Part shown: piece by piece, positions 1 through 25,577 of the stretch | How positions within the stretch are numbered: position 1 is the stretch's first letter | Layout of the letters: every line of letters begins with the position of its first letter | Origin: Chloroflexi bacterium HGW-Chloroflexi-2 | Lineage (GTDB): Bacteria > Chloroflexota > Anaerolineae > Anaerolineales > Anaerolineaceae | DNA length: 64,000 nt | NCBI GenBank assembly: GCA_002840735.1 | Contig: PHBY01000010.1 | Coordinates: 1-64,000, forward strand | Direction: 5' to 3' | Made by a program: the position numbers and the translations under genes | Notes under the pieces: model-generated | What the model was told of the DNA's origin: nothing | What the model saw: only the letters and a program-made list of their open reading frames with translations | Database searches by the model: none

Positions 1-620
1 GCCCAAACTTATTGCGACCCTGACTGCGGGTAAGAAAAAACGGGGCCTTTGTACACCGCTGTTAGTAATTATAACAAAAATAGAACAATAATTCTGTAGT
101 AAAGTAACCGAATATGCATGTTATTATTCACAAAATCATAGAACAAATGTCATATTTAGTTATAAATAGACTGGAACTAGATAACCAAATTTATTTTTGC
201 ATACCTAAAGTATCAAAATAGGAATAATCGCCAAAAAAAAGATGGTTAATTTTTTAGTTTTAGTATTTTTGGGTATCAACTTTTCCAATAAATGAAGGTT
301 TTTCTACTCTCAAGCATCTAATAATAAAGTGATCAATATGAGGATTTAAAACAGATTGATTCAATTGTTTAAAACCGCGGATATACCTGCCATCGAAGTC
401 CGATGCAAACAATACAGAGAAGTATGTTTTGCATTGCACTTCTATTAATGGATGACCAAGAGGATGCAGATTATGCTATGTGAGTTGTTTTCAACTCAGC
501 TTGTCTCTTTACGAATGACTTACTTTGAATTGAAAATTAACAACCTGGTTAATTACAATGGGATGTTGGATCAAAGGTAATATAAACTTATGAAAGGGAA
601 TAATTTTTTAAATACAATTT
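1..620. other. AT-rich intergenic region, no supported gene
   Basis: No convincing gene. A frame open from base 1 to a TAA at 31-33 could be the last ten codons of an upstream gene ending in a Cys-containing tail, but this is too short to support. Around 365-510 there are short, higher-GC open stretches in different frames that look like a decayed coding sequence. The last 35 bases are part of a leader that is repeated upstream of the second lipoprotein gene. Confidence 0.4.
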
Positions 621-650
621 ATGATTGTCAATGAGAAGGAGATTCTTATG
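587..650 (+). repeat. Leader of first lipoprotein gene, copy 1 of a duplicated leader
   Basis: About 64 bases ending at the ATG at 648. It matches the leader at 3569-3631: both have CTTATGAAAGGGAA, then a T-rich/A-rich stretch, then GTCAAT, AGGAG and the ATG. It contains a 14-codon mini-frame (590-634) starting MKGN. The shared leader shows that gene plus upstream region were duplicated together and supports 648 as the start. Confidence 0.6.
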
Positions 651-3158
651 AAATTTTTAAAATTTTTCATCAGGACGAGTACTAATAATTTTTCCATTAT
701 CATTTTAATAAGCTCTTTGCTGATAACCGCTTGTATTCCCCAACAAGCAGAAACTGGAAAATTTGATCAGACTACCATTTCCTTCGCCGTACCAAAGTAT
801 ATCAAGGATACATACATTCCTTTGGCTGATGCTTTCGAGATTGAGAATCCTGGCATCAGTATCCAAATTGTGACACCATCCGAATTTTATGAATTGTGGA
901 ACGAGGAGGATTTATTCAACCTGGCTTCTGCTGCGGATACCTCTTTCCATCTATCCAGCCAGGAGTTATTGCAGAACCAAACTTTCTTCCTTGATCTACT
1001 CCCACTGATGGAAAATGACCCTGAGTTTGAAATGGAAGATTTTTGGATGGGATCACTTTCCGCATGCAGGGACGAAACGGGTAAAATAGTCGGTTTACCA
1101 TTGGATCTGAATATGACCGGTATGATGGTGGATAAACCAGCGTTTGACAAGATAAACATTACTGCTCCAGCTCCGGGTTGGGGTTGGAATGAATTTGTAA
1201 ATGATTTGCAAGTGTTAGGTGCTAAGCAAGATTTGGTCTATCTCGATTCTCAGACCTTTTTTACATCCGTTTTGGCTGCGCAGATCGACCCATTTTTGTC
1301 TGATGAAGATGAGTTGTCGCAACGATTATTGGACTATGAAAATGCTGTGAAAGCAGGACAAATCCATGCCTATGATGAAAACCAGTCCATTGGAGAGCGA
1401 CAGACTCTGATTGATGACCAGAAACCAGCGTTGTGGGCCGCTTCATTAAACCAGGCTATCGAAGTGATCGCTGCCCAAGAGCAGACAGAACCGACTTGGA
1501 GTTTTGTACCTTATCCACTTGGCGAAGGAACAATTAGCACTTCGCCATTTGGTGTCCGTTGTGCCATGATTAGCCAGGGTAGCCAACATCCTCATGAAGC
1601 CACGTTATGGCTCAAATTCCTCTCAGAGCATTGGCTTGTTACTGCTGATCAGGTGGATCGTTATCAATACATTCCTGCTCGCATCTCTGTGGCAGATTCC
1701 TCCGGCTTTTGGAATGAATTGCCTGAGACAGTGGAAGATACTGTTCGGTTTGGTCTGGCACACGCCTGGTATAAATCCGAGGATTCTGAACGTCTCAGTT
1801 GGATCCAACAAATATTCGATAGCGTAATGACGGGTGAAACCAATCTTCAAACTGCATTGGCAGCTGGCATGAATTCTCTCAGTCCTTCAGAAACACGAAC
1901 ACCGGTTCCAGCGATTGCGATTGCCACACCGCAGAAAACTTCAACCAATTCGGACAACCAATCCATTAAATTTTACTCAGATGCCATAGACCAGCTAACT
2001 ATGCAGGCAATCCTGGAAGAATACCAAAAAACCCATCCGGAGATATCCATAGAACTGATTCACCAGAATAATTTTATGAATATTGATCTGGAGAACTACA
2101 CCAGGAATTATGATTGTTTTACCGGATTGAGTTCTTATGTAAACAATTCTTCCTTATACAAGGAAGATGAACTACTGGCAATAAATGCTTTCCTGGATTT
2201 AGAGCCGGAAATAAGCAGTGATTTTTATCCCGATCAATTGAAGCTATATACACGGGAAGGAGAGCTGCTGGCCTTACCAGCAACCCAAGCATTGTCTACA
2301 TTTACCTATAATGCTGACTTGTTGAACGAATTGGGAGTGGTTTTACCCTCGAACGATTGGTCGGTGGATGAATTTCTGAATTTGATTAACGCAGCCCCAG
2401 CACAATCCTCAGCTGAAATGGAAGTATATGGATACGCAATGATCTCCGATCGATTGCTTCTGGCAAGTAAAGAGATTGGTATCGAAAACGCAACATCTGA
2501 TTTTCAATTTACTTCGGAAAAATCAATTTCCACCGCAAACTGGTTGAAAAGTCTGGTCGATGACAATATTGTTGTCCGCAACCCGGCAGATGCCCCGAAT
2601 CGGGTGGCATTGTTAGTAGCAGCCGGTCAGGTAGCGATATGGGACACTTCATTTAATGGTTGGTTTTTCAATGGAGAAGTACCCGACTTTCTCACCGAGG
2701 AAGTTGCTATGCCATTTACCTCTAAGCCTTTAAGCGTCAATCCGGGTGGGCAGGCATACTATATATCAAGGCATGCCAGAGACCCGCAAGCCTGTTGGAA
2801 TTGGATCAGCTTCCTATCTTCCCAGCCGGCTGCATCGAAGTATTGGCCTGTTCGCCAAACCGTGGCTACTTCTGGAGAATGGCAATCATTGGTTGGTTCT
2901 GAAGCAGTAGAACTCTTCACAGCCATGCAAGAGCGTGAGTTGGCTTATGCGAATATGTCTCCTCAAGAACAGAACCTGCAGAAGATTTGGGTGGAAGCGA
3001 TGAAAGCTATCTATGAAGGCTTACCAGCTAGGACAGTGCTATCTGATGCGCAGAAACAGTATGATGATTATCTTACCTGCATGCAAATAAATTTACCCCC
3101 TGATGCCAGTTACGACCAGATTAGTGAAATAAGTGAAGGTTGTATTTTTAGTGAGTGA
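648..3158 (+). CDS. Double-domain extracellular solute-binding lipoprotein, array copy A
   Basis: About 836 residues. The start is set at ATG 648, not the upstream in-frame ATG at 621: GAAGGAG lies just before it and it aligns with copy B. The N-terminus is a lipoprotein signal ending in lipobox LITAC. Two family-1 (ABC sugar type) solute-binding domains follow, roughly residues 35-405 and 440-830, joined by a Pro/Thr-rich linker. Each repeats the family pattern: a beta start such as TISFAVP, IENPGISIQ or HPEISIEL, a Gly-Leu-Pro segment, and a WLxFLS or WNWISFLS helix. Conserved Cys occur in both halves. The cargo is unknown. No importer permease adjoins it. The tandem fusion and multicopy array are unusual for solute-binding proteins. 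Confidence 0.85.
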   Translation: MKFLKFFIRTSTNNFSIIILISSLLITACIPQQAETGKFDQTTISFAVPKYIKDTYIPLADAFEIENPGISIQIVTPSEFYELWNEEDLFNLASAADTSFHLSSQELLQNQTFFLDLLPLMENDPEFEMEDFWMGSLSACRDETGKIVGLPLDLNMTGMMVDKPAFDKINITAPAPGWGWNEFVNDLQVLGAKQDLVYLDSQTFFTSVLAAQIDPFLSDEDELSQRLLDYENAVKAGQIHAYDENQSIGERQTLIDDQKPALWAASLNQAIEVIAAQEQTEPTWSFVPYPLGEGTISTSPFGVRCAMISQGSQHPHEATLWLKFLSEHWLVTADQVDRYQYIPARISVADSSGFWNELPETVEDTVRFGLAHAWYKSEDSERLSWIQQIFDSVMTGETNLQTALAAGMNSLSPSETRTPVPAIAIATPQKTSTNSDNQSIKFYSDAIDQLTMQAILEEYQKTHPEISIELIHQNNFMNIDLENYTRNYDCFTGLSSYVNNSSLYKEDELLAINAFLDLEPEISSDFYPDQLKLYTREGELLALPATQALSTFTYNADLLNELGVVLPSNDWSVDEFLNLINAAPAQSSAEMEVYGYAMISDRLLLASKEIGIENATSDFQFTSEKSISTANWLKSLVDDNIVVRNPADAPNRVALLVAAGQVAIWDTSFNGWFFNGEVPDFLTEEVAMPFTSKPLSVNPGGQAYYISRHARDPQACWNWISFLSSQPAASKYWPVRQTVATSGEWQSLVGSEAVELFTAMQERELAYANMSPQEQNLQKIWVEAMKAIYEGLPARTVLSDAQKQYDDYLTCMQINLPPDASYDQISEISEGCIFSE

Positions 3159-3568
3159 TTTGAATCAAACAAAGAATTATTATAATAACGGTTCTCTTAT
3201 GATTAATAATGTAGGTCTTTCTACAATTAATCGTCTAAAAAATATAAATGAACGGGCTCGAGAAATCTGTTTGTTTACAAGTAACGACCACATACTGAAA
3301 AATAATTGCTTGCAAAGCCTTAAAAAATGGGTTAATATGAACGAACAAAGGGAGGTCTGCGAGGGAATACAAAAGTTCCAATTTTTGTTGTTCCTCTGAT
3401 TTCGCTATTTCGAGAAATCAATTGTGTTAAAAAAATATGGTTCAGAAAATGTAGTGCTTATGAAATAGAAAACAATAAAAACTCTCTCCAAATTTAAATC
3501 TTTCACCATAAGGAAAATTCCAAAATTAAAAATCTAAAAAATTCTCTTTGGGAAAAGTGTTATTAAAA
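3159..3568. other. AT-rich intergenic region between copies A and B
   Basis: About 410 bases without a supportable gene. A 66-88 codon frame (3133/3198-3399) is open, but it has no ribosome-binding site and low-complexity codon use, and no paralogue lies in the other intergenic gaps. A short inverted repeat (GATTTC/GAAATC) lies near 3399-3420. Confidence 0.4.
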
Positions 3569-3631
3569 CCTTATGAAAGGGAACAGTTATTTAAGTAATT
3601 AATGGCTGTCAATCTGTAGGAGGTTCTAATG
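3569..3631 (+). repeat. Leader of second lipoprotein gene, copy 2 of a duplicated leader
   Basis: This is the counterpart of 587-650. The shared parts are CTTATGAAAGGGAA, a TTTAA stretch, GTCAAT, and AGGAG just before the ATG. It also carries a mini-frame beginning MKGN (3573-3602, nine codons). Confidence 0.6.
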
Positions 3632-6232
3632 AAGTATTTCCGATTATTCACGACGAAAAAAATTACAAATATAATCCCTATCATTCTATTCATTTCATTG
3701 TTGATAACAGCATGTAACCCACAATCTGGGGCGATGGAAGATAGTCCACGGACGACAATCACTTTCGCCGCTGCTGGATTTTTTCAAAAACAGTATGAAA
3801 CCCTGATTGAAGAATTTGAATCGCAAACTCCCAGCATCCACGTCCAATTTGTACCGCTGGAAGAAGCGACTCCTGGTGAAACACTTGAACATACTTTGGC
3901 AGCCTCCCTGGCAGATGTGGTAATGATCAGTCCACCGCAGGGGCAGGATATCTACTATTATCTGGATATTGAACCCATTTTGGAAACAGATCAACTCTTT
4001 GATGCAAGCGCGTTCTGGCCAGGCTCGCTGGATGGCTGCCGGGCGGAAGGGCGTCTGATCGGAATTCCGCTCAGCATCCAGACTCTGCTGGTGATGTATG
4101 ACGAGGCTGCTTTTGACGAGATAGGGCTGGATCACCCGGCGCCGGGATGGAGTTGGGATGATTTTCAAGAGGCTGCCCAATTACTGACCAAACGCTCCAA
4201 CGGGGAAGTAACCCGCTATGGCTTTGTCGATTATAACCATCCAACCTCGTTGCTTGCCCCGCTGATCGATGCGGTAAACCGTCAAAATGGGAACGAATAT
4301 GATCCTGTAAAGCTGACAAATGCTCTCGATTGGTATGTTTCCCTGGCACAAAGCGGTAATATCCCCAGCGATTATAGAGCGGAAGAAGCCGGAGAAGTGA
4401 GGAATTACATCAGTACCGGCCAAGCCGCCATGTGGGTGGATGCCCTCTCCTCATTGGAAGAGCGCAGGAATGAGTTGGGGGAATCCATCGCGGTTGCACC
4501 TTTCCCGCAGGGAGGCATCAATGGCAACCAGAAAACCACCCAGGCCTGGGCTTCCTGCGGACTGGTCAGCGCAGGAACGGCTCACTCACTCGAAGCACTC
4601 ACCTGGCTGCAATTCCTGTCCACGCAAGGGGTTCCCGGGATTAATTCGCTGGCAATACCGGCCAACAGAGCCGCAGCCGAAGAAAGCGGATATTGGAACA
4701 GTCTGGATGTGAACACTGCTGCTGCAGCACGTTATGCGCTGGAACATGGCTGGTACGGTGCCGCTTCCAACCTACCTTTTGAACAGATTGGTCAAGCACT
4801 GAATGATGCAAAAACGGGAGAGATTATCCTGGCAGATGTGCTGGAATTGATCAGGATGGATCAAATTGCCGCGATACCGCCAACACCGCAAAGCACTCCT
4901 TTTGCTGTTGCCACACCAAAGCCGCCGATAATATCTGTACCTTTGTCGGGCGATACCATTGTTGTCGATTACTTTGTTGATTCCAGCGATCTTGCTGATA
5001 AGGAAACCATTGAAGCCCTGGCACAAGCCTTTATGCTTGAGCACCCCGATATCATAATCCGATTAGAGGATTTCAAATCATCCGGATTGCCATATATTAA
5101 TTTCGATTTAATGGCGGAAAATTATGGATGTTTTATTTATCAGTCAGGATTAGCGGATTATTATGTTTCACAATTGTATAACTTGCAACCGTTAATTGAT
5201 GCGGGTGATGAGGGACAAGATTTATTGAATGACCTACCGGAATCCGAAATATTGCGAAATCAATTAAATGGTGATTTGTATGCGTTACCGGTAGCTGATA
5301 GGCCTACAGTCCTGTACTATAACAAGGACATTTTTATTGAGAAAGGTGTGCCGTTCCCGGCTTTAGACTGGTCATGGTCCGATTTTTGGCAGGCGGCAAT
5401 AGCAGTGGCTTCCGAAGATGTTTATGGTTTTGTCCCCATTAATGGGCGTGAGTTTATCAACATTCTTTTGGCAGCAGAAGGAATTGAACTTTACGATTTC
5501 ACCACCGATTCACCTGTGATCAATTTTAATGATCCAAAATTTCATGCTATTGTTTCCAATTTGGAAGAAATGGGGAATGATGGTGTTATTCCAACGATAG
5601 ATGAGCATATCGATTGGAACAAGGGTAATACTCAATTTCGATTTAACGAAGTACAAAGTGGCAAAGCAGCTATGTGGTTGAATATGGCGGGAATAGAGTA
5701 TGGTGGATACTTTCCACCAGGAACAACAAACTTCGAGGTGGGTGTTGCCCCTGTGCCATCATTCGGATATCCGCTTATGCCGATGAATAAAGGCACAGCT
5801 TTTTATATTTCGCGCCAGGCTGAAAACCCCACTGCCTGTTGGGAATGGATAAATTTCTTATCCGATAAACCGGAAGCGTTAGCAGGCATACCATTGCGTC
5901 AATCCATCCTTGAATCGGAGCGATATGAACAAATTGTTGGTGTGGAGTTGGCAACGGTTTATCGCGCAGTGATGGAACACCCTCGTCAGGAAATATTGGC
6001 CGATTATTCGGAAAAGTATCCCAGCTACCCACTTTACTTGTGGTGGCCCGATACACTTGCTTCGGTTTTCGAAGGGGTGCCGGTAACACAGGCGTTAACC
6101 GAATTGCAGGGGAAATCGGAAGCATATTTGAATTGTGTGGAAAGTAATAGTGATCCTCTTAATGAGGATGTTTGGAAAGGTTGCGCAAAGCTGGTTGATC
6201 CTGATTTCCAATCATTACTATATTCAGAATAA
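3629..6232 (+). CDS. Double-domain extracellular solute-binding lipoprotein, array copy B
   Basis: 867 residues, started at the ATG behind TAGGAGG. The signal peptide ends in lipobox LITAC. Two solute-binding domains (about 40-415 and 445-850) are separated by a linker rich in Pro, Thr and Ala. Domain 1 keeps FWPGSLDGC and a second Cys in WASCGLVSAG. Domain 2 keeps NYGCF, TACWEWINFLS, YLNC, and a C-terminal GCAKLVDPD. It is the best preserved, most typical member of the array and shares a leader with copy A. By eye, the half encoding domain 1 is visibly more GC-rich than the half encoding domain 2. The ligand cannot be named. Confidence 0.87.
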   Translation: MKYFRLFTTKKITNIIPIILFISLLITACNPQSGAMEDSPRTTITFAAAGFFQKQYETLIEEFESQTPSIHVQFVPLEEATPGETLEHTLAASLADVVMISPPQGQDIYYYLDIEPILETDQLFDASAFWPGSLDGCRAEGRLIGIPLSIQTLLVMYDEAAFDEIGLDHPAPGWSWDDFQEAAQLLTKRSNGEVTRYGFVDYNHPTSLLAPLIDAVNRQNGNEYDPVKLTNALDWYVSLAQSGNIPSDYRAEEAGEVRNYISTGQAAMWVDALSSLEERRNELGESIAVAPFPQGGINGNQKTTQAWASCGLVSAGTAHSLEALTWLQFLSTQGVPGINSLAIPANRAAAEESGYWNSLDVNTAAAARYALEHGWYGAASNLPFEQIGQALNDAKTGEIILADVLELIRMDQIAAIPPTPQSTPFAVATPKPPIISVPLSGDTIVVDYFVDSSDLADKETIEALAQAFMLEHPDIIIRLEDFKSSGLPYINFDLMAENYGCFIYQSGLADYYVSQLYNLQPLIDAGDEGQDLLNDLPESEILRNQLNGDLYALPVADRPTVLYYNKDIFIEKGVPFPALDWSWSDFWQAAIAVASEDVYGFVPINGREFINILLAAEGIELYDFTTDSPVINFNDPKFHAIVSNLEEMGNDGVIPTIDEHIDWNKGNTQFRFNEVQSGKAAMWLNMAGIEYGGYFPPGTTNFEVGVAPVPSFGYPLMPMNKGTAFYISRQAENPTACWEWINFLSDKPEALAGIPLRQSILESERYEQIVGVELATVYRAVMEHPRQEILADYSEKYPSYPLYLWWPDTLASVFEGVPVTQALTELQGKSEAYLNCVESNSDPLNEDVWKGCAKLVDPDFQSLLYSE

Positions 6233-6461
6233 TCTAATTTAACCAATCACCGATTAATTCTAATTAGTACTTTCAAAGAAAACGTTAAGGATCTAACGCG
6301 TATGAGGTTGTTTATGAAAATTAAATTTGTTGATAACTCTTAATCGATATAATAATCAATATTTAATGAGGGATGATCAAAAATAACTACAATCGAATTG
6401 TTTCATATGGATTATCAATAAATTATTTTTGTAATGGGAAATGTTGCAGAAAGAAGTGCAA

Positions 6462-8909
6462 ATGAAACCAAAATCACTAAGAATTTTAAATTCAATAATT
6501 ATAATCATAACCGTTTTTATAGTCTCAGGATGTAATTCCAATGACACTATCCAAAACCTGGACGATAAAGCCCAAAAAACCACCATCACCTTCGCGGCCA
6601 TAGAGGCGCAGCATGCGGAATATGCAGCCCTGATCGCTGAATTCGAGGTCCAAAACCCGGATATTGATGTCAAGTTCGTGAACTTAGCGGTAGACCCCAG
6701 TAACATGAGTGGATTCGCCACCCAGGCGGATGCAATTGCTTTGCCGGTTGTGCCGGTCGGGTCAGATGCCTATACCTACCTGGACATCCAACCACTGGCA
6801 GAAACGGATACAAACTATGATCAAGGGCAGTATTTACCGGGGATCATGGAAGGTTGCCAGGTGGATGAAAGGCAAATCGGTTTGCCTTATACCGCCTCAC
6901 TACAGGTGATCTATTACAACCGCGATATTTTTGATGCTGCCGGGATAGCTTACCCACAACCGGATTGGACCTGGGAAAAATTCCGGTTGAACACGATCAA
7001 CCTGACCAGGCGCAATGGTCAGGAAGTTGAACAATACGGCTTTGTGAATTTGAGCAGTATGGTGCGTTTACTGGGAACAATGCTTAATCGTGATCTGATG
7101 ATTAGCGATGAAGAAGAAAAAGCAGGCGCGTTGGAAAAAACCCTCAATTCCTACCTAAACCTTGTTCAGCTTGGATATGTAAGGGTTCCACAGAATGGTG
7201 AGTATCCTGGAGATCTGGAGTCCCTCATCTATGATGGAAAAGCTGCCATGTGGCTGGATGGGTTGTTCCGTCTGGAAGATTACCGTAATGCCCTGGGTGA
7301 ACAGATCGGGTTTTTGCCGGTGCCGGAAGGAACCCGAGCCACAGCACGCTGTCTGGCGATCAGCGCAGGCAGCCAGCAACCACAGGCAGTATGGCGGTTG
7401 ATTAAGTATCTGTCGGAACAGAATGGGCCATTTGTGTTGCCCAACGAACTACCTGCTTATCAGGAAATGATTCAAAACAATGTAAACTGGCAGAGTTTTA
7501 GTGACGAAGAACAAACGGTTCTGAAAGCAGCCTTGGACAATGCCTGGTATGGTACCCACTGGTTGTTTGCAACCCTCAATCTGGAATTTGATAACGTGCT
7601 GACGGATCAAAACGATATGAACAGCATGCTCTTATCTGTTTTGCAATTAAATCCACCTGAGCTGGAAGGTCCAATTGAACCGCAGTTTGCGTTCGAGGTA
7701 CGCAGCACTCCTGATGATATCCCTCCCGGGGCAGTTTTTATTAAATTTCACGGCTCATATCTTAATCGTGAAGTGAGAGAAGTACTGGTAAATGAATTTA
7801 ATCAAAGCCAATCCGACTATTATATTTATACAAATGTATCACTAGAAGACGCTGATTGTTATATCGACTCTTCGCGATATACCAAAAACCACCCCGAAGC
7901 GTATTACCCGTTAACACCCCTGCTGGAAGGGGATGCGGAGAGTATGGCGTTGGCGGCTGATCTGCCGCCTGGTGTGTTAGAAACAACGCGGCTTAATGGA
8001 GAAATTTTGGGAATTCCGCTTTTTACATTAGCATATGCCACCTACTATAACCCGGTATTGTTGGAGCAAGCAGGACTGGAACCGCCACCGGATGATTGGA
8101 CATTTTCTGAGTTTTGGGAGTATACTCAGGCAGCTACGCAGGATGGGATTTATGGATTTGGATTAGGCTCACCGGCTCTCGTAGTAATCTACGATAGCAT
8201 GAACTCACCGTTGATAGACGAAGACGGGGAAGTACCGGTGTTTTTATTTAATACACCTGAGGTAAAACAAACTACTGAGTTTTTATTGAAAATGCAGTAT
8301 GAAGGGGTAATTCCTGAATTAGATATTGACATGGGAGATAAGTATTTGACATGGCGTAAAAATATCTTATCGGACAAAGCAGTATTTTGGATGAGTTCGA
8401 TGGATGATTACCTTAACGAAGAACTCAAATATGATCCAGGTATGCTTCCGATACCGGGATATATTCCAAATTACTCCCTCACCAGTTTCCCATCATTTTT
8501 TATTTCAAAAAACTCATCAGTTCCCGAAGGATGCTGGGAATGGTTTAAACATTTTTCCACGAATCCAGCCATATACAGTTGGATCCCCTTACGGAATTCT
8601 GTTCGAAATTCACCGGAATATGAAGCGCTGGTAGGGACTGACATGGCATCCCTGTACCGGAAAATTATCGATCAAATGAAGGTAACACCAATTGATGAGA
8701 AAGGCAGGGATACTTCTTACTTTACCACAGGACCTTATTTTTGGTTTCAAACCACCATTGGAGCTTTGAAATATGGCGAAGATTTGGATATACCTTTGCA
8801 AACTGTTCAATTTAAATCGGAAGCATACCTGACCTGTATGCTTAACATGGACGGGACCCCCGGCGAAAATTATCAGACGTGTATGAAGTTAGTAGATCCG
8901 GATTCATGA
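6462..8909 (+). CDS. Double-domain extracellular solute-binding lipoprotein, array copy C
   Basis: About 815 residues. ATG 6462 is preferred over the in-frame ATG at 6441 because it directly precedes the basic and hydrophobic signal peptide, which ends in lipobox IVSGC. The two solute-binding domains are roughly residues 30-390 and 430-805. Hallmarks match the neighbours: MEGC followed by IGLPY, a Cys in TARCLAISAG, DADCY, PEGCWEW, YLTC, and a terminal CMKLVDPDS. The stop overlaps the next start as ATGA (8906-8909), so this gene was once translationally coupled to an ABC exporter gene that survives only as a fragment. The ligand is unknown. Confidence 0.86.
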   Translation: MKPKSLRILNSIIIIITVFIVSGCNSNDTIQNLDDKAQKTTITFAAIEAQHAEYAALIAEFEVQNPDIDVKFVNLAVDPSNMSGFATQADAIALPVVPVGSDAYTYLDIQPLAETDTNYDQGQYLPGIMEGCQVDERQIGLPYTASLQVIYYNRDIFDAAGIAYPQPDWTWEKFRLNTINLTRRNGQEVEQYGFVNLSSMVRLLGTMLNRDLMISDEEEKAGALEKTLNSYLNLVQLGYVRVPQNGEYPGDLESLIYDGKAAMWLDGLFRLEDYRNALGEQIGFLPVPEGTRATARCLAISAGSQQPQAVWRLIKYLSEQNGPFVLPNELPAYQEMIQNNVNWQSFSDEEQTVLKAALDNAWYGTHWLFATLNLEFDNVLTDQNDMNSMLLSVLQLNPPELEGPIEPQFAFEVRSTPDDIPPGAVFIKFHGSYLNREVREVLVNEFNQSQSDYYIYTNVSLEDADCYIDSSRYTKNHPEAYYPLTPLLEGDAESMALAADLPPGVLETTRLNGEILGIPLFTLAYATYYNPVLLEQAGLEPPPDDWTFSEFWEYTQAATQDGIYGFGLGSPALVVIYDSMNSPLIDEDGEVPVFLFNTPEVKQTTEFLLKMQYEGVIPELDIDMGDKYLTWRKNILSDKAVFWMSSMDDYLNEELKYDPGMLPIPGYIPNYSLTSFPSFFISKNSSVPEGCWEWFKHFSTNPAIYSWIPLRNSVRNSPEYEALVGTDMASLYRKIIDQMKVTPIDEKGRDTSYFTTGPYFWFQTTIGALKYGEDLDIPLQTVQFKSEAYLTCMLNMDGTPGENYQTCMKLVDPDS

Positions 8910-9205
8910 AAAAATCAAAAAAAGTGGGTAATATACTACCTAAAATAAGGACTTTCAAGGAAATCAGTGTTCTTGCATTTCGTATCACTCCATTTTTGAC
9001 CGGTATTCTTTTTGTACTAAATATTATTCAAAGTTTAATCCCACTAGGGTCAGCCTGGAACACCAAAATAATCTTTGATTTTTTGGGGAAGTTATTTCAA
9101 TCAGATTTAAAATCAACGATTAATCCATTAGGATCATTTGATTCTTTAAGATCTGGTCCGGTTCATTTTATAAATTTTATTGGATTGGTAATATTTGATT
9201 TTTAA
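8906..9205 (+). pseudogene. Truncated N-terminus of an ABC exporter membrane domain
   Basis: 99 codons from an ATG that overlaps the stop of copy C (ATGA). The product begins basic, then has a transmembrane stretch around residues 20-45. Its TGILFVLNIIQSLIPLGS and WNTKIIFDFLG segments resemble the first membrane helix of fused permease-ATPase (type I, MDR-like) exporters, which usually run to about 600 residues. The rest of the permease and the whole ATPase domain are missing, and copy D starts 17 bases after the stop. I read this as the remnant of a deleted transporter gene. A small membrane protein is the alternative. The family match was made by eye. Confidence 0.55.
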
Positions 9206-9221
9206 ATTTAAAGGAAAAATA

Positions 9222-11738
9222 ATGTTGAAATCAATAGGCTTTATTAAATTCATTGTCTTGTTTATATTATTTTCAATTCTTTTAAGTACATGCCAAATGC
9301 CAATAAGACCAATGACTGATAACCTGAAAAAAGATTTAATTTTTGGTAATTTAAATTATGACCAATATGATTACCAAACAGTGATAAATTCAATAAATAA
9401 AGATAAAACTGATTCAAAAATTTCTATACTAGAATTAGAAATCAAAGATGATAATTCTATTAGAACCTTTGCCTCTCAAGCCGACATCATTTTACTAAAA
9501 GGTATAAACCCCGCAACTTTTCAAGGTTATTTAAACTTAGAGCCGCTTATCCAATCTGATCAAACATTTTCCAATAATGATTTTTTGCCAAACTCGCTTA
9601 ATGCTTGTGCAGATGAAAATGGTAATCAGTATGGAATTCCAATCTGGGTTTATTTAACAGGTATTTATTACAATCCACAATTGTTCACCAAACAGCAAAT
9701 CGATTATCCGGAATATGATTGGACAATCGATTCTTTTCGACTAATCGTTTCTCAACTAGAAGATAAATACCCTATGGTTGATGATGGAGCACTATTATCT
9801 CCTTATATTTATGCTCATTTAAATAAAAATGATGGGAAAGTAAACGTCATTCAATTTTTGGAAGAATTAAATTGGTACGAGGATTTGGTAAAAAGTGGAA
9901 ATATTATCCTCAACACTGAAGGTTCAGGTAATCCATTTGATAGATCAGGAAATTCATCACTCTGGGTGGCATTTAGTGATGAAGAACTATTTCCATCAAT
10001 AAAGGATAGGGTTTTTCTTCCTTTTCCTGTTGGAAAAGATAACCAAATCGCGGCAGGAATTTTTTCGGATTGTATTGCCATTAGTGCTAACACATCAAAC
10101 CCTCAATTAGCGTGGGATGTGTTGAAATTAATCTTAAACAAGTTGCCATCCAAAGAAGGTGCCTTTTTTGCAAAAGAAGATATTTCAACGCTGTCAGAAA
10201 ATATACAATATGCATTCAACCATGGTGGGGTCATGAGTAAATATTCTTCTGAATCATTTTTTCTAAGGCAAGGATATATCAATGCTTTAGTTAATAATAT
10301 GGATTTAAATTTAGCTATCAGAAATGTCATTACTACCTATAGTTCGAAAGAGAATCAAGTGGATGGGACGGAGGAAGAGCTATCCACAGTAAGCACACCT
10401 ATCCCAACGCAAAACCCTAATTCCATCACGATAAATTTTGGATTTAAATACTATTCCAAACTAAATTACCAAGATCATTTAAACTCATTAATTTCTGAAT
10501 TTCAAAATGAGAATCCTGGGATCATTGTTTTATGGAGTACGGAAATTTCTCCCAAAGACAATAATAATATTTTGGAAGCCAGTAATGAATATGATTGTTT
10601 TCATTATTCCAGTCCTTTGATTGATGATTTACCTGTTGAAAATTTATTAGAATTAGACCCACTTATTGCAAACGAGGGCGATAATTTTCTGTCTTCATAT
10701 CCAGATTATTTATTTTCTCCATTCTCTGATGGTGGCAATATATATGGACTACCAGCCAGCAATTCAGCAGAATTTATTAGTATCAATTTAGATTTAATGA
10801 GAGAAAAAGGAATTTCAATTCCTACTTCAGATTGGACATTTAAAGATTTGTTATTAAAAGCTTCTGAAGGGAATGATGACTTTGAAATGAATTCTTCCTA
10901 TGGATTTAGTGCGGGTTCCAGTACATTACTTAATTATTTGGATCTCGAATGGTATGAAAAAAGCTCTGCATTGCCAAGGGCTTATCTTAATTCTCCAGAA
11001 ATTATTTCAGCAATGGATTGGATCAATAATCTCTATTTGTCGAAGAGCTTTTTACCCCAATATTTTTCTCTTTCACCAGAGAAACCAATTAATTATATAA
11101 ATTATCAAGAAGCTATCCAAAATGGGCAGGTATTAATGTGGGTATCATCTTTTGGATTTGAAAGTGAAACTGATTACCCGTTTTCAGTAAGTTACCTTTT
11201 GTTTCCTCAAGATAATGAGGGAAAAAGAATAAATCAAACTATATACCCCTTCGGTTACTATATTTCCAAAAATACGGTTAATGCGGATGCTTGCTGGGAT
11301 TGGATAAAATTCCTGTCAAACCATAGTTATGGTTTATTACCTGGATTACCCGCAACCACCTCAAAGGAGAGTTTGGATGTTTGGAGAAATCAATACTCAC
11401 TCGATCGGTTTGAAATTATTCAATCGGCGATACACAGTTATAGTCCTCCTCAAAATCCCTTTTTTGTTGAATATCAACCAATCATCGTGCGGCCTTACAG
11501 TGATTGGCTGAGTGCGGCATTAATCAGAACTTTTCAGGGGGAAGACCCAAATTTGGTTCTTAACGAGTATCAATCGTATGCAGATCGTTACCATACTTGC
11601 ATATCCAATCGAAATGTGACTAGTTTGACAAAATCCCAATTATTTAATCAAGTGGTTGAACCGTGTGCACAGGAAATAGACTGTTGTACATCCTCGACTC
11701 GAGGAAGCCAACCTTTTGGCTGTTGTGAAAACAAATGA
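9222..11738 (+). CDS. Double-domain extracellular solute-binding lipoprotein, array copy D
   Basis: About 838 residues. The start is ATG 9222, behind AAAGGAA and just before the signal peptide; lipobox LLSTC. Two solute-binding domains of the same type as copies A-C are joined by a Ser/Thr/Pro linker near residues 390-410. Conserved Cys are present: LNACADENG, SDCIAIS, EYDCF, ADACWDWIKFLS, YHTC. It is the most AT-rich of the five by eye and the most divergent. The usual ending CxxxVDPD is replaced by CAQEID followed by a Cys-rich tail (CC...GCC), encoded by DNA containing two perfect short inverted repeats. The ligand is unknown. Confidence 0.83.
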   Translation: MLKSIGFIKFIVLFILFSILLSTCQMPIRPMTDNLKKDLIFGNLNYDQYDYQTVINSINKDKTDSKISILELEIKDDNSIRTFASQADIILLKGINPATFQGYLNLEPLIQSDQTFSNNDFLPNSLNACADENGNQYGIPIWVYLTGIYYNPQLFTKQQIDYPEYDWTIDSFRLIVSQLEDKYPMVDDGALLSPYIYAHLNKNDGKVNVIQFLEELNWYEDLVKSGNIILNTEGSGNPFDRSGNSSLWVAFSDEELFPSIKDRVFLPFPVGKDNQIAAGIFSDCIAISANTSNPQLAWDVLKLILNKLPSKEGAFFAKEDISTLSENIQYAFNHGGVMSKYSSESFFLRQGYINALVNNMDLNLAIRNVITTYSSKENQVDGTEEELSTVSTPIPTQNPNSITINFGFKYYSKLNYQDHLNSLISEFQNENPGIIVLWSTEISPKDNNNILEASNEYDCFHYSSPLIDDLPVENLLELDPLIANEGDNFLSSYPDYLFSPFSDGGNIYGLPASNSAEFISINLDLMREKGISIPTSDWTFKDLLLKASEGNDDFEMNSSYGFSAGSSTLLNYLDLEWYEKSSALPRAYLNSPEIISAMDWINNLYLSKSFLPQYFSLSPEKPINYINYQEAIQNGQVLMWVSSFGFESETDYPFSVSYLLFPQDNEGKRINQTIYPFGYYISKNTVNADACWDWIKFLSNHSYGLLPGLPATTSKESLDVWRNQYSLDRFEIIQSAIHSYSPPQNPFFVEYQPIIVRPYSDWLSAALIRTFQGEDPNLVLNEYQSYADRYHTCISNRNVTSLTKSQLFNQVVEPCAQEIDCCTSSTRGSQPFGCCENK
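11691..11721 (+). repeat. Two adjacent hairpins inside the end of copy D
   Basis: TCCTCGA/TCGAGGA around one base (11691-11705) and AGCCAA/TTGGCT around four bases (11706-11721). They fall inside the reading frame and encode the anomalous Cys-rich tail. Confidence 0.6.
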
Positions 11739-11846
11739 GGTTACAGAAATTTTATCGTTCTTACTTTAATCCAATTTTCCCATGGAATTATTATTACACT
11801 TCGATCATCAATTAGTAACATTATAAGAGTAAACAAAGGAGTTAAA

Positions 11847-14447
11847 ATGTTTACAATAAAAAATGTAAGTGTAAATGCGATAATTATATGCGTAATGATT
11901 TTTCCTTTGACAAGTTGTGACCACGCGACAACAGAATTAATATCAGACAACTCTCAGCAGAAAGTAACGATCACCTTTGCAGCAACAACCGGCGCCGTAT
12001 CGCAATATGAAAAATTAATTACCACATTTGAAAGCCAACACCCGGACATCCGGGTTGAATTGCTCGCTATGGATGGGGAGCTACCGGATTATGAGCGGTT
12101 AACCTCACAGGCTGACACGCTTGTGCTGGGTAGTGCGGTATCAGCGGAAAACAGCCATCTATTTCTGGACCTGACGCCATTAATGCCCAATGAGGACTTC
12201 AGTCCAGATGATTTCTGGCCGAATTCATTGCAGGGCTGCCAGAGCGGGGATAAGCAAGCAGGGTTGCCGGTATCTTTAAACCCGAGCCTGGTTTTTTACA
12301 ACAAGAATATTTTTGATCAGAAAAATGTGGCATACCCACAACCAAGCTGGGAGTGGGATGAATTTAAAAATACGGTTCAGTTGCTATCCGACACAAGCGG
12401 AACGGAACCTGTCTACGGCTTTGTGGATAACAGCGCCGGGTTTATCCTGCGCCCTGAAACCCATGCGTTATTAGGTACCAATAAAACCCCTGCCGAAGTG
12501 GGTGCTACGTTGGACTGGTACCTGGAACTGGCTCGTTCTGGAGAAATAGCCATTCCGGGGGTGAATATAGAAGAAAAAACCAATGATCTGGTGCGTGGTA
12601 ATCAAGCTGCCATGTGGGTAGGAACGTTATCAGGTTTTTCGTACGACCTGCAAGGGTTGGATTTTGAAGTGGGTTTTGTTCCATTCCCAACATCCTCCAG
12701 AAGTGAATTTGGGAGCAACCCGGTCAGTGTCAGTTGCGCGATGGTCAGTGCTGGTACCGGGTACCTGGAGGCAAGCTGGACATGGTTGAATTTTCTCAGT
12801 CACAATTCGGTGGGCATATCATCCGGTTTTCCGGCCAATCTTGCGGCGATTGAAGATTCCCCTGAATGGGTAAGCCAGACACCGGAAAGACAGACGGCAA
12901 TTCGGGGGGCACTGCAAGGCGGATGGTACGGTTGGGTAAAATACGACTTTACACCAATCGCACAAGCTTTCCAAAAATCAATTCAATCGGGGCAAAGGCT
13001 GGCAGATCTGCTACCAACAAACTTATCCCTGCTGGCTTTGGAACGTGATATCCCGGAAGTAGAACATACACCGCAGGCAGTCATGGCACCAGAACCGACT
13101 CCCCTTCCAAAAACAGAGAAAGCGGAAAACGCTTTGAGTGCTGTTTATTTTGCTGATCCTGGTTTACATGACAATAGAAATGTGCTAGCCCTGGCAGAGG
13201 AATTTAATCTGACCAATCCGGAATATTATATTGAAATTGTGACCGAGCGCGGGATGGATTTCGTAAATATTAACAGTAATGAGTATGATATTAAAAATTA
13301 TGATTGTTTTCTGGCACCAGCTGCCACTGTTTCTTATCACTTGGAAGAGATAAATCAGGAGGGAAGTTTTTTACAAAATATTTATTCGTTGGACCCGTTT
13401 TTGGATTTAGATGAAAACTCAGTCCTTAGTGATCTTGACCCTGATCTGGTCACCCTCTTACAGGTGGATGGATCTTTGTACGGTATTCCTCAAACCATTA
13501 ATCCTTTATTCGTTTATTACAATGCCAATTTATTGCAGTAATTAAGGTTGGAACCACCCAATTTGGATTGGACGGTGGAGGATTTTTGGGCGTTGACACA
13601 ACAAGCCGCTCTTAAGAAAGAAGGTGTCTATGGATATGTGCCTTACAGAGATTGGCCGAATTATTTTTTCAGCGATGCCAGTTATATGAAAATGGAAAAC
13701 CAAACTGTAAAAGCGGATTATGAAAACCCGCAACTGGTGGATTTACTTAATCAACTTTTACCATTGGTGAAAGACAAAACATTATTCCTGTATGATGCAG
13801 GCGGTACCCGCTCAGCCATGGGAAACTATATGCTGCGCGATGAATTGATCCGCTTTGAGTATGGTCTGCTTTGGCTGGATGGTATTGGTATGTCTTCCAC
13901 ACCACCCGCCCGTGACAGAAATGATTTTGAGATCGGAATTGCCGTATACCCAGCCAAGCAGGTAGTCGATCCAAGTGATATCAGTGCATTTTTTATTTCC
14001 CGTCACACTGAAAACCCACAGGTGTGCTGGGAATGGTTCAAGTTTTTATCACAGCAACCTAATAATGGGTTTAAAGGAATTCCACTAAAACCTTCTATTC
14101 TGGGCTCAGAAAATTGGGCTGCTTCAGTTGGAGAAGGACGGGCAACCGTCTACCGGGCAACATTATCAAAATTGCAATTTTCATCTGAAGTGAGTTTTTT
14201 TCCACACATGCCGTTTAGCCAGTGGTGGACCGATGCAATCGTAGCAATCCTACAGGATGGTCAGGATATGAGTGCCGTATTGAAAGAAACCCAATACAAA
14301 GCCCAAGCAACCCTGGATTGCATGCAATCTGCCGGATATTCTGCTGTTTTACCTTATGAAGAGACGTATGAGGCTGCAATCGCCTGTGCGCATGAAGTCG
14401 ACCCGGATTATTACTCGATGTCCGAGTTGTGGTCTGTCAATCGATGA
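11847..14447 (+). pseudogene. Double-domain solute-binding lipoprotein, array copy E, split by an in-frame stop
   Basis: The start ATG follows AAAGGAG. The signal peptide ends in lipobox PLTSC. A complete first solute-binding domain and Pro/Thr linker precede the start of domain 2. The frame then hits TAA at 13539-13541 and continues in the SAME frame to 14447. Across the stop, ...YYNANLLQ-stop-LRLEPP matches ...YYNPVLLEQAGLEPP in copy C, so the stop replaces a Gln codon (CAA to TAA, one base). No frameshift is needed. A TTG at 13548 could restart translation but lacks a well-spaced ribosome-binding site. The remainder keeps PQVCWEWFKFLS and a CAHEVDPD ending, so decay is recent, the stop is read through, or the base is an error. 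Confidence 0.8.
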
Positions 14448-17389: not shown

Positions 17390-17407
17390 CAGAGATAGGG
17401 AGGTTTT

Positions 17408-18808
17408 ATGAGAAAAATTTTTCAGCAAATTGGTATGGTATTTATTTTGGTATTAACCGCCGGTTGTGCCCCCAATCGTTCAGCGATCACGCCAACGTTG
17501 GTTCCCACACCGGTCACTGTTGAGAAACCGGTTTATACTGTTGAAAGGGGGTTGGTGGAACAAGTGGTACAACTAACCGGCCGCGTGTCACCTAAAGTTC
17601 AGCAGGACTTATATTTCCGCGCGGATGGCTTTGTGAAAGAAGTCTTGGTGCAAAATGGCGATTGGGTAACGAAAGACACGGTCTTGGCCAGGTTGGATGA
17701 ACCGGAACGTTACCAGGCTGATGTGGCTTCCGCCGAGTTGGCTTATGAGCAAGCCAAGATAAAATTGGAACAAACCAAAATGGATGCACCCATTCAGGCG
17801 GCCCAGGCCAAAATTACACTTTTGGAAGCCCAGATTGCGTTGGACAAGGCCAGGAATGATCGGGCAGCGATGCAATACCCGCGGGTGACCGACGGATTAA
17901 AGCTGGAACAATTGCGCGGAGATGTAGCTGCAGCCTTAAGCTCGCTCAATGATGCCCAACAGGCATTTGATGACGTGGCTGATAAGCCAGAGGGGGATCC
18001 CTACCGTCAAATGATCTTGCAAAGTCTCCTGGATGCACGTCAAGCTTATAACCGTGCTGTGATCAATTTAAACTGGGCTGAAGGAAAAGGTACCCAGGCT
18101 GATCTGGACCTGGCAGATGCCAAAGTAGCCCTGGCACAGGCAAATTATGAGAAAGCTTTGGCAGAAGCAGAATTCTGGAATGAGGATGGTGGGTTAACCG
18201 AAATTCGCCTGGCAGAATTAGTATTGCAGGATGCCGAAACACGTCTGGCTTTGGCTACCAAAACCTTGGGAAGTATCGAACTGGTAGCGCCTATCAACGG
18301 GCAGGTGCTCTCATTAAGTATCGTGCCGGGTAGTCAAGTGCGTGCATTTCAAGCTGTAATCACCCTGGCTGATCCGGCAGAGCTGGTATTGATGTCCATC
18401 CCCGCCGTGAAAGACCTGAACAAACTGGCAGTTGGAATGCAGGCAGTGGTGCGTCTGTCCTCTCAACAAGGACAGGAATATACGGCAACCATCAGTAACA
18501 TTCCTTTGGATTTAACCTCGGCCAGTGAATTATCCTCCGGAAATAACGCCGTACAGGTCACCTTGAACGAGCAGGCCGATGTGTTGCAATTGGGCGATGC
18601 AGCCACCATCCTGATTAAAGTGGATGCACGGCAGGATGTACTCTGGTTACCACCGGCTGCGATCCGTTCCTTCCAGGGGCAGGATTTCGTGTTTGTGGAA
18701 AGCGGAGGCGTTCAACGAAGGGTGAATGTAGTGCTGGGGTTGAAGGCAAACGACCGGGTTGAGATTGTATCCGGACTGGAAGAAGGACAGCAGGTGGTCG
18801 GTCAATAA
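17408..18808 (+). CDS. HlyD/MacA-type membrane-fusion lipoprotein of the exporter
   Basis: 466 residues, start ATG behind GGGAGG. The signal peptide ends in lipobox LTAGC. The protein has a lipoyl/barrel-sandwich half (near 60-95), a long coiled-coil rich in Ala, Gln, Leu and Lys (about 95-285), the second lipoyl half (APINGQVLSLSIVPGSQV), and beta-barrel and membrane-proximal domains, with WLPPAAIRSF near 415. This is the normal order for periplasmic adaptor proteins that partner MacB/FtsX-type exporters. The gene stop overlaps the ATPase start (TAATG). It probably links or gates the exporter at the outer face of the membrane. Confidence 0.85.
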   Translation: MRKIFQQIGMVFILVLTAGCAPNRSAITPTLVPTPVTVEKPVYTVERGLVEQVVQLTGRVSPKVQQDLYFRADGFVKEVLVQNGDWVTKDTVLARLDEPERYQADVASAELAYEQAKIKLEQTKMDAPIQAAQAKITLLEAQIALDKARNDRAAMQYPRVTDGLKLEQLRGDVAAALSSLNDAQQAFDDVADKPEGDPYRQMILQSLLDARQAYNRAVINLNWAEGKGTQADLDLADAKVALAQANYEKALAEAEFWNEDGGLTEIRLAELVLQDAETRLALATKTLGSIELVAPINGQVLSLSIVPGSQVRAFQAVITLADPAELVLMSIPAVKDLNKLAVGMQAVVRLSSQQGQEYTATISNIPLDLTSASELSSGNNAVQVTLNEQADVLQLGDAATILIKVDARQDVLWLPPAAIRSFQGQDFVFVESGGVQRRVNVVLGLKANDRVEIVSGLEEGQQVVGQ

Positions 18809-19842
18809 TGGAACCATTAATTACCTGTGAGAATTTGGTAAAAATATATTCTTCCTCGATATCCCGTTACCATAAGGGTGTTGAGGTGGTCGCATTACAG
18901 GGACTGGATCTGACCGTGGCACAAGGGGAGATGATAGGCATTGTGGGGGAATCAGGTTCGGGAAAATCGACCCTTTTAAATATTCTGGGTGGGTTGGACC
19001 GCCCTTCGGCAGGAAAGGTATTGGTAGCTGGTGCCAATTTGTTGGAGATGTCTGCCGAAGAATTGAACTTATACCGGCTCAAGAAAGTTGGTTTTGTCTG
19101 GCAGCAGACCACCCGTAACCTGGTCCCTTATTTGAGTGCTTTGGAAAACGTTCAAATTCCGATGCGTATTCACCATATTCCTGAAGAACAGTGTCGCCAA
19201 CGTGCCACACAATTATTGGAGATTACCGGTCTGGCTGATCGGTTGCAGCACTTACCCGGTCAGCTTTCCGGCGGTGAACAGCAGCGGGTGGCTATTGCCG
19301 TAGCCTTGGCCAACCAACCCGATCTGATTCTGGCGGATGAACCTACCGGTGAACTGGATACGATCAACTCAGCCAGGATATATGAGATCTTGAGAAACAT
19401 TAACCGGGATTTGGGGGCAACCCTGATCATCGTCTCGCACGACCCGGGTATCAGCCGATACGTGGACCGGGTGGTCCTGATCCGCGACGGAAAAACCAGT
19501 ACCGAGACGGTCCGGGTTACACTAGCAATCGACCACCATAATAAGAACCAGCAGGATCCGGAAGCGGATAAATACGAAGAATTGTTGATGCTGGACTCTG
19601 TTGGGCGGGTACAGATCCCAAAGCTCATGTTGGATGCGCTCAATATTGGTAGCCGTGTAAGGGCAGAGATAAACCAGGAAGGAATCACCCTTAAACCGGT
19701 GGATGGACACGTCCGTTCTGCGATAAACAGAGATACTACTTTCAAGGATGAGTCGATCTACATGGAAGAAGAGCCGGTGGAAGAAACCCGACAGACTCTA
19801 ATACAGAAATTCAAAAACCTGTGGCGCATGGAGGGGAAATGA
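18808..19842 (+). CDS. ABC exporter ATPase with C-terminal AbrB-like domain
   Basis: 344 residues. The first 235 form a MacB/LolD-type ATPase: Walker A GESGSGKST, signature LSGGEQQRVAIA, Walker [13 protein letters not shown] and switch His in IIVSHD. After a polar linker, residues about 258-298 contain LDSVGRVQIPKLMLDALNIG followed by RVRAEINQEGITLKPV. This is the swapped-hairpin AbrB/SpoVT pattern (DxxGRVxIPxxxxxxLxI). LolD/MacB-class ATPases normally end near 230 residues, so the roughly 110-residue extension is an added domain. Its start overlaps the previous stop, and its own stop overlaps the next start (ATGA). It may regulate, dimerise or bind DNA; none of these is shown. Confidence 0.85.
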   Translation: MEPLITCENLVKIYSSSISRYHKGVEVVALQGLDLTVAQGEMIGIVGESGSGKSTLLNILGGLDRPSAGKVLVAGANLLEMSAEELNLYRLKKVGFVWQQTTRNLVPYLSALENVQIPMRIHHIPEEQCRQRATQLLEITGLADRLQHLPGQLSGGEQQRVAIAVALANQPDLILADEPTGELDTINSARIYEILRNINRDLGATLIIVSHDPGISRYVDRVVLIRDGKTSTETVRVTLAIDHHNKNQQDPEADKYEELLMLDSVGRVQIPKLMLDALNIGSRVRAEINQEGITLKPVDGHVRSAINRDTTFKDESIYMEEEPVEETRQTLIQKFKNLWRMEGK

Positions 19843-24031: not shown

Positions 24032-24202
24032 AGATTCTTTTCCTTGTTTGGTTTTTTGAAGGATTAGTCGGGAATGATAAATTCTGATTAATTTTTTCGG
24101 TCAAATGTTAGAATATTTTTCGAATTCTTCAAATTTTCTTTACTGAATCTTTACAATTTTACAGTAAGATTGAATTAATTAAGAAATTTGGAGGTTGTTC
24201 GA

Positions 24203-25571: not shown

Positions 25572-25577
25572 GAAAGT

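Follow-up and report, generated by a model that had tools for sequence, protein, structure and literature searches.

The first 64,000 bases of contig PHBY01000010.1 of Chloroflexi bacterium HGW-Chloroflexi-2 (Anaerolineaceae, phylum Chloroflexota), hereafter the window, open with an array of five genes for double-domain lipoproteins, which carry two family-1 solute-binding protein (SBP) domains in tandem and are called dSBPs here. The array is followed by an operon for an ATP-binding cassette (ABC) transporter of the Type VII class, typified by FtsX and MacB. The genomic linkage between dSBPs and FtsX-type permeases is well above chance, relatives of the dSBPs are fused to signalling proteins, and we hold with moderate confidence that the dSBPs belong to a ligand-capture and sensing module arranged around a Type VII transporter. 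This reading builds on a computed fold, anchor motif, ancient fusion, co-localisation and set of fusions, from which we infer the ligand, the contact between the partners, the direction of transport and the regulation. The window covers bases 1 to 64000 of a 169.5-kb contig (C37) in a 4.1-Mb genome, and the closest named relative is the Anaerolineaceae bacterium KA20 (locus L012), whose gene 2 is 93% identical.

The five window proteins measure ~815 to 867 residues. A motif scan found a lipobox-like motif in each (ITAC, ITAC, VSGC, LSTC, and LTSC in genes 1 to 5), a Pro/Thr-rich linker is visible by eye in all five, and for genes 1, 3, and 4 an ATG inside the open reading frame (ORF) is likely the better start (Table 1). 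Genes 1 to 3 score above the Pfam cutoffs for both SBP_bac_1 and SBP_bac_8, and gene 4, with a Cys-rich C terminus and 33% GC, for SBP_bac_1 only; each of the four has two matched stretches. Gene 5 is interrupted by an in-frame TAA at 13539-13541. Its first 564 codons match SBP_bac_1 and SBP_bac_8 in Pfam; for the last 301 codons Pfam gave nothing at E 0.01, though they can be aligned with the C halves of genes 1 to 4. When the halves were compared by BLAST within the array (gene 5 included, with an X at the stop), N halves matched N halves best and C halves matched C halves best. Chance ORFs as the source of the array were ruled out by the Pfam scores, the tree, and the ratios of nonsynonymous to synonymous substitution rates (dN/dS) given below. 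The preliminary description of five adjacent genes, each with a lipobox, two SBP domains, and a Pro/Thr linker, stands as far as the array itself is concerned and fails only for gene 5, which is not intact.

An AlphaFold2 model of gene 2, made from ten sequences, had a mean predicted local distance difference test score (pLDDT) of 71 and a predicted template modelling score (pTM) of 0.47, values so low that the mutual placement of the halves is not trustworthy. Compared with solved sugar SBPs, residues ~41-416 of the model gave a Z score of 28.5 and residues ~443-834 one of 25-26; the structure matches mostly cover the N half, with the C half in fewer of them, and some span both. The sequence profiles agree with these matches, and among solved structures those most closely related are importer sugar SBPs. 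The two-lobed SBP fold is thus predicted in both halves of gene 2 by the model and in genes 1 to 4 by profile, and the possibility raised beforehand that only one half has a binding-protein fold was not borne out by the AlphaFold2 model and its structure matches.

The absence of an importer beside the array, already remarked upon from the letters of the window, extends to the whole of contig C37: none of the 60 matches to the permease family PF00528 in the genome lies on this contig. Since the window starts at the first base of the contig, the region upstream of gene 1 cannot be read in the source genome, and in two relatives the ORF lists contain no sugar-type permease upstream of the array (1.7 kb in L012, 11.4 kb in L027). 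The array's own profile, A1, also found six single-domain SBPs (on contigs C16, C21, C34, C26, C18, and C4) in this genome, which may hold more, and all six have a PF00528 pair close by on the same contig. Judged by sequence, the five window genes have the lipobox of family-1 importer SBPs and are not encoded with MalF/MalG-like permeases.

Downstream of the array, on the same strand and with short gaps or overlaps between genes, come an FtsX-type permease, a membrane fusion protein (MFP) adaptor, and two ATPases (Table 1). Hydropathy shows hydrophobic segments in the permease, with two large loops of ~273 and ~251 residues lying between them. Both ATPases score highest for LolD and the permease matches LolCE weakly, all below the curated NCBIfam cutoffs. 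From its sequence, the operon at 14534-20534 is predicted to encode a Type VII transporter, with an FtsX permease bearing large outer domains and ATPases of the LolD/MacB/FtsE class. Farther away, more than 4 kb downstream of the transporter and beyond genes on the minus strand, ORFs resembling a response regulator and a kinase were recognised by eye at 24906-26735; small secreted-looking proteins, the first of them Gly/Met-rich (by eye), flank this pair at 24188-24772 and 27483-27962. Elsewhere in the same genome, two more long FtsX-domain ORFs (1099 and 1051 codons) stand close together at G000:C9:41402-47029.

Table 1. Features at the start of the window.
Feature	Coordinates	Strand	Basis or remark
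Decayed ECF sigma-factor gene remnant and its upstream region	274..576	+	Frameshifted, with stops
dSBP gene 1, lipoprotein	621..3158	+	Two SBP stretches by Pfam; likely start ATG 648
dSBP gene 2, lipoprotein, 867 aa	3629..6232	+	Pfam; AlphaFold2 model; structure matches
dSBP gene 3, lipoprotein, 815 aa from likely start ATG 6462	6441..8909	+	Pfam
Stub of ABC exporter, 108 codons	8879..9205	+	First 82 residues 93% identical to start of L027:13904-15001
dSBP gene 4, lipoprotein, 838 aa from likely start ATG 9222	9195..11738	+	Pfam, BLAST
dSBP gene 5, TAA-interrupted (564 + 299 codons)	11847..14447	+	ORF calls; open in G001, G006
FtsX-type (Type VII) ABC permease, 951 aa	14534..17389	+	Two PF02687 stretches, E 1.2e-17
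MFP adaptor, HlyD/MacA-like	17408..18808	+	HlyD_3, HlyD_D23, RND_mfp above cutoff; lipobox-like LTAGC by eye
ABC ATPase 1, LolD/MacB type	18808..19842	+	PF00005; best NCBIfam LolD, YbbA, MacB, DarD, FtsE, all below cutoffs
ABC ATPase 2, LolD/MacB type	19821..20534	+	PF00005; best NCBIfam LolD, DevA, MacB, FtsE, all below cutoffs

To survey the gene neighbourhoods of dSBPs, profile searches were run on near relatives (5 of 101 genomes matched, the window's own included), on the class (141 of 396 at E 1e-30, many through single-domain SBPs), and on the phylum (25 of 400 at E 1e-50, singles again among them). From the matches listed we took nearly all full-length doubles with up to ~9-10 kb of flank per side. 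The resulting set of 50 gene units comes from 39 genomes and contains 68 dSBP genes as counted; the class and phylum searches generally scored two candidates per genome, and array sizes are therefore lower bounds. The 50 units omit L092 and L093 (importer clade), L052 (broken ORF), and class matches not fetched at length, e.g., G421, G299, G125, G453, G368:C183, and G225:C419. An FtsX permease was found within 3 kb of a dSBP in 29 of the 50 units, two of them assigned manually from Pfam results (L064, and L077 with a MacB_PCD fragment at the contig edge), and on the strand of the dSBP in 27 of these 29. FtsX occurs together with an MFP in 24 units, at least one of FtsX, MFP, or ATPase lies within 1.5 kb of the dSBP in 32, and of the 26 units with at least 5 kb of flank on each side, 20 have an FtsX permease. 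As the genome of the window has 8 FtsX-domain ORFs in 4.1 Mb, proximity by chance would be expected in ~2% of cases, by a rough estimate.

In the same 50 units, a home-made model built from three seeds detected no MalF/MalG-type (binding-protein-dependent) permease; with L092 and L093 restored, FtsX stands at 29 of 52 and permease-adjacent units at 2 of 52. Homologues of the array genes are accordingly not routinely encoded with MalF/MalG-like permeases, the arrangement that the preliminary description had set against its own proposal. Among the multi-transmembrane ORFs of the loci, 8 of 48 matched BPD_transp_2, and PF00528 was not among the best 25 of 56 families, although a single weak match may lie below these; from the gene maps, the BPD_transp_2 matches are probably nucleoside-type importers near L085, L088, L089, and L094. 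In six units (L067, L073, L074, L075, L078, and L080) an ATPase gene stands within 300 bp on each side of the dSBP gene. Outside the class of the window, eight loci of family f118 (L132, L134-L138, L143, and L144) have the order dSBP-MFP-FtsX, often with an ATPase next, and no pump was found in the f118 loci L140, L141, and L145. PA14 plus SH3 repeat proteins were seen beside FtsX-dSBP operons of two genomes (L073:973-2925 and L076:4536-6425).

Searches of genome contigs, viral contigs, and plasmids extended to close relatives only. Among genome contigs, L012 was the single contig closely related to the window; L013 carries a further dSBP, and L014, from Cellulomonas, matched weakly. No relative was found on viral contigs among 40 pattern matches. 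Gene 2 matched 72 plasmid records, none with 80% coverage in one place, and the ten listed are annotated as sugar SBPs or unannotated.

Two sets of controls put the linkage in proportion. The first comprised 20 of the nearest single-domain loci, taken in list order among the class matches listed and free of ORFs longer than ~600 residues; three (L152, L158, and L159) gave no SBP ORF and 17 were counted. FtsX lies within 10 kb in 4 of the 17, and one more locus has an MFP with two ATPases, which rules out FtsX linkage as a trait of the doubles alone and makes the association with the pump older or wider than the double form. The second started from the permease: 42 of 150 genomes, the window's own included, matched at E 1e-60, and 28 FtsX operons were drawn from the best ~29 matches outside the own genome (the rank of G168 was skipped, and at least five operons are on contigs shorter than 10 kb). 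An SBP stands beside 9 of these 28, namely four doubles, four singles, and one fragment (L178, counted as positive); L170, with a weak SBP match (28 bits) ~5 kb away, was counted as negative. The other 19 operons lack an adjoining SBP by the rule applied, so that the SBP is an optional partner and not one that the pump requires.

The scores for Lol proteins raise another possibility, namely that the dSBPs are cargo, extracted by a Lol-like FtsX complex and displayed by it on the surface, as LolCDE is described to carry lipoproteins in the discussion of PMC12646458. We regard this as improbable. Although LolD heads the list for both ATPases and the permease leans weakly to LolCE, every one of these scores is below its curated cutoff, an MFP adaptor is present, the fusions to BlaR1 and anti-sigma proteins described below could not be exported in this way, and such pumps occur without an SBP nearby in 19 of 28 cases.

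The history of the double form was examined with a tree of halves (142 rows, a subset, by a quick method; 56 N halves and 56 C halves). The N halves cluster together and so do the C halves, giving two nearly clean groups that run parallel and have a similar inner order. The N group needs two changes and the C group three to be pure; one single-domain row falls inside each, and the anti-sigma SBP of G002 falls inside C. Because the two kinds of halves form parallel groups, the fusion looks ancient and single, and repeated new formation of doubles is ruled out for the dSBP family. New formation does hold for L092 and L093, which adjoin importer permeases (Pfam): the halves of each are mutual nearest relatives placed among importer SBPs, which marks them as separate recent duplications. 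A C-terminal Cys pair is present in 58 of 69 doubles, in 1 of 19 singles, and in none of 9 importer-SBP rows (3 of the 9 repeat others).

These results bear on the idea that the dSBPs are orphan receptors feeding a CUT1 sugar importer encoded elsewhere. It draws on their fold, on solved relatives that are sugar SBPs, and on the 60 PF00528 matches on other contigs of the genome. Nevertheless, in the tree the dSBP halves group apart from both the importer SBPs of the window's genome and the importer-adjacent doubles, the Cys pair is absent from importer SBPs, fusions to signalling proteins exist, and MalF/MalG-type permeases were detected in none of the 50 units, and we give this explanation little credence.

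Several relatives of the dSBPs are joined to regulatory proteins. The dSBP array of G006 begins with a gene that overlaps one for an extracytoplasmic function (ECF) sigma factor and codes for a zinc-finger-like N terminus, a hydrophobic segment, and a dSBP (L012/L029); the N-terminal head matches zf-HC2 at E 0.006 and an NCBIfam anti-sigma family at E 2e-4, both below cutoffs, with an HxxxCxxC motif visible by eye. L098 joins zf-HC2 (E 3.7e-7, above cutoff) to a dSBP on a contig that holds no upstream gene. In G002 (L031), an ECF gene overlaps one for a zf-HC2-like protein (E 6e-4, below cutoff) with a single C-type SBP. ECF genes adjoin the dSBP arrays of G001 and G006. In L086, the M56 protease of BlaR1 is fused to a dSBP beside a Penicillinase_R gene (Pfam), and L090, from the same genus, has an identical layout by sequence; a Pfam scan found no BlaR1 fusion in the window array.

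Fusions of this kind speak for pure sensing. In that explanation, the strongest rival to ours, the dSBPs would be receptors or decoys of an envelope-stress circuit, and the FtsX pump a co-regulated output that they never touch. Receptors fused to anti-sigma-type proteins and to the BlaR1 protease, the ECF genes beside arrays in G001 and G006, and the 21 of 50 units with no FtsX gene within 10 kb all agree with it. Yet recognised signalling fusions account for just four of 69 doubles (L029, L086, L090, and L098), and the dSBP gene sits between two transporter ATPase genes in the six units mentioned above. We consider pure sensing unlikely.

The window itself records an exchange between the anti-sigma and lipoprotein forms of the receptor. 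Upstream of gene 1, bases 274-576 align with the ECF start region of G006 at 62% DNA identity (306 bp, E 2e-22), and the remnant aligns with G002 at 61% DNA identity over 217 bp (E 1e-11). When ECF proteins were compared with the full window by tblastn, that of G002 gave 47% over 34 aa (33.9 bits, E 1e-4) and that of G006 E 0.002; the best of 300 mononucleotide shuffles of bases 1-620 reached 23.1 bits. An intact ECF gene with a zinc-finger anti-sigma, as found in G006 and G002, is absent from the window locus, where there are only the remnant and gene 1 with its lipobox. Bases ~578-789 are 67% identical to the leader region of window gene 2, and 566-876 are 64% identical to L029 4905-5216; the part of gene 1 that starts at 783 shares 92% identity with L029 from 2140 onward, inside the anti-sigma-dSBP gene of G006. 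Gene 1 looks like a natural chimera, with a gene-2-type lipoprotein leader to ~782 and an anti-sigma-type sensor from 783. The simplest reading of these alignments is a recombination in which the sigma/anti-sigma head was lost and a lipoprotein leader was placed in front of the sensor of gene 1.

Other parts of the locus have decayed as well. A longer version of the exporter stub between genes 3 and 4 stands in G001 after the orthologous dSBP gene (L027:13904-15001) and matches ABC_membrane at E 1.5e-4, below cutoff. The orthologues of gene 5 in G001 and G006 are uninterrupted (L028:6939-9545 and L030:6724-9336). A conserved stop in gene 5 was considered, as the G001 copy had also been listed with one TAA; the ORF of that copy is open, so this TAA lies outside it. 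Against G006, dN/dS was 0.29, 0.37, 0.17, and 0.36 for genes 1 to 4 (gene 4 being 98% identical in amino acids), and 0.51 for gene 5, with 0.59 before the stop and 0.18 after it; against G001, it was 0.19 for gene 3, 0.30 for gene 5, and 0.085 for the FtsX permease. Genes 1 to 4 look selected on these ratios, and the pump seems to be evolving more slowly than the receptors, in a comparison that sets one relative (G006) against another (G001) except for genes 3 and 5. That the array of this genome is a decaying relic with little function left is very improbable: the ECF remnant, the exporter stub, and the stop and high ratio of gene 5 speak for it, but the values of 0.17-0.37 for genes 1 to 4 and 0.085 for FtsX do not fit.

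The stub has its counterpart in a larger assembly in G001. From L027:8411-13934 to L028:780, genes for MauE, a redoxin, an S26-peptidase-like protein, a 145-codon Cys-rich product that matches no Pfam family, a dSBP, and the ABC exporter stand in a row. The cluster has two S26-peptidase-like genes, one of which was run against Pfam. This row looks like an export cluster for a disulfide-rich peptide. Redoxin genes also accompany the four dSBP genes each of L070:395-13447 and L072:2758-13410 (in L072 the contig ends within the last of them). A radical SAM/SPASM gene separates two of the dSBP genes of L070. At L068:10431-13562, an ORF of 1043 codons has a weak radical SAM match (below cutoff) followed by two SBP stretches, either a fusion or a frame artefact.

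In the explanation that we favour, the dSBPs would be a Chloroflexota family of membrane-anchored tandem lipoproteins that stem from one old fusion and do not serve a nutrient importer. In the window and at many other loci, a dSBP would be the extracytoplasmic, ligand-capturing partner of a Type VII transporter with a long FtsX permease, an MFP, and LolD/MacB-type ATPases. It would bind an extracellular or membrane-associated ligand, perhaps a glycan or glycolipid, or else a peptide or antibiotic that contains one, and would pass it to the outer domains of FtsX and the MFP for removal or relay. Receptor versions fused to an anti-sigma factor or to the BlaR1 protease would report the ligand to transcription. 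The preliminary description had proposed that paired domains at the surface capture or sense ligands, perhaps for the exporter that follows; the FtsX linkage and the signalling fusions strengthen this proposal, and the 19 of 28 pumps without an SBP weaken it, making the SBP optional.

Several observations weigh against this explanation. FtsX is missing within 10 kb from 21 of the 50 units, 6 of which have at least 5 kb of flank on both sides, and 19 of the 28 FtsX operons of this subtype, some on short contigs, have no adjoining SBP. No importer permease was detected near the closest single-domain SBPs either (0 of 17), so the doubles are not unusual in lacking one. Among solved proteins, those closest to the dSBPs are importer sugar SBPs, and the window locus is partly in decay, with its ECF remnant, exporter stub, and gene 5 stop. 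The 50 units are, moreover, not independent, several coming from one genus or family, and for this reason we attach no probability to the FtsX linkage.

Compared with known systems, the dSBPs share the fold of both halves, the lipobox, and the SBP_bac_1/8 profiles with the family-1 (CUT1-type) importer lipoproteins MalE, UgpB, and YesO, and differ from them in having two fused domains, no detected MalF/MalG, a C-terminal Cys pair, and an exporter or signalling context. A periplasmic partner is typical of Type VII transporters, according to the discussion of PMC12646458, and the systems treated there (MacAB-TolC, YbbAP-TesA, LolCDE-LolA, and FtsEX-EnvC) resemble the window in their two-loop FtsX permease, LolD/MacB-class ATPases, MFP, and separate extracytoplasmic protein encoded with the pump. 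The partner proposed here is, however, a membrane-anchored tandem SBP, and no SBP is among the Type VII partners which that discussion names. Relatives of the class sense or remove antimicrobials, as stated in PMC5985334. BceAB/BceRS and YknXYZ, from the same source, are alike in tying an FtsX/MacB-class transporter to the sensing or removal of extracellular antimicrobials, and YknX is a MacA-like adaptor; they differ in that the sensor proposed here is a tandem SBP, fused in relatives to an anti-sigma-type protein or BlaR1, and that no kinase has been assigned to the window operon. With BlaR1/BlaI and ECF sigma/anti-sigma pairs, the relatives share an M56 protease beside a Penicillinase_R gene and a zf-HC2-type protein overlapping an ECF gene, whereas a family-1 SBP, in double or single form, takes the place of the extracellular sensor.

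Among the matches listed in titles, abstracts, and open-licence PMC text, we found no report of SBP partners of FtsX transporters in Chloroflexota and none of family-1 SBPs fused to anti-sigma proteins or BlaR1. The nearest cases are a DUF2884 lipoprotein proposed as the solute-binding partner of another ABC pair (PMC11237479) and a family-5 SBP domain in a LytR-CpsA-Psr protein (PMC2632651). Known folds and a known transporter class thus meet in a combination without a report among the matches listed in the open-licence PMC text searched.

As the dSBPs carry the profiles of importer sugar SBPs and their solved relatives are so named, annotation likely files them under sugar uptake. If the linkage reflects function, FtsX/MacB transporters would have in SBPs a partner of a new kind, and anti-sigma and BlaR1 systems would have in the SBP domain a new type of sensor. 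We put forward, tentatively and as less probable than not, that a nutrient-import receptor gave rise to a portable two-domain sensor that was plugged into Type VII transporters, ECF anti-sigma factors, and BlaR1 and moves between these forms by recombination, of which gene 1 of the window is a record; its paralogue arrays would form a rapidly changing set directed at different extracellular peptides, glycans, or antibiotics, for which the Cys-rich peptide export cluster of G001 may be a source. A direct way to find the ligand leads through the fusions, since what triggers the BlaR1 or anti-sigma form may also reveal the ligand of the transporter form.

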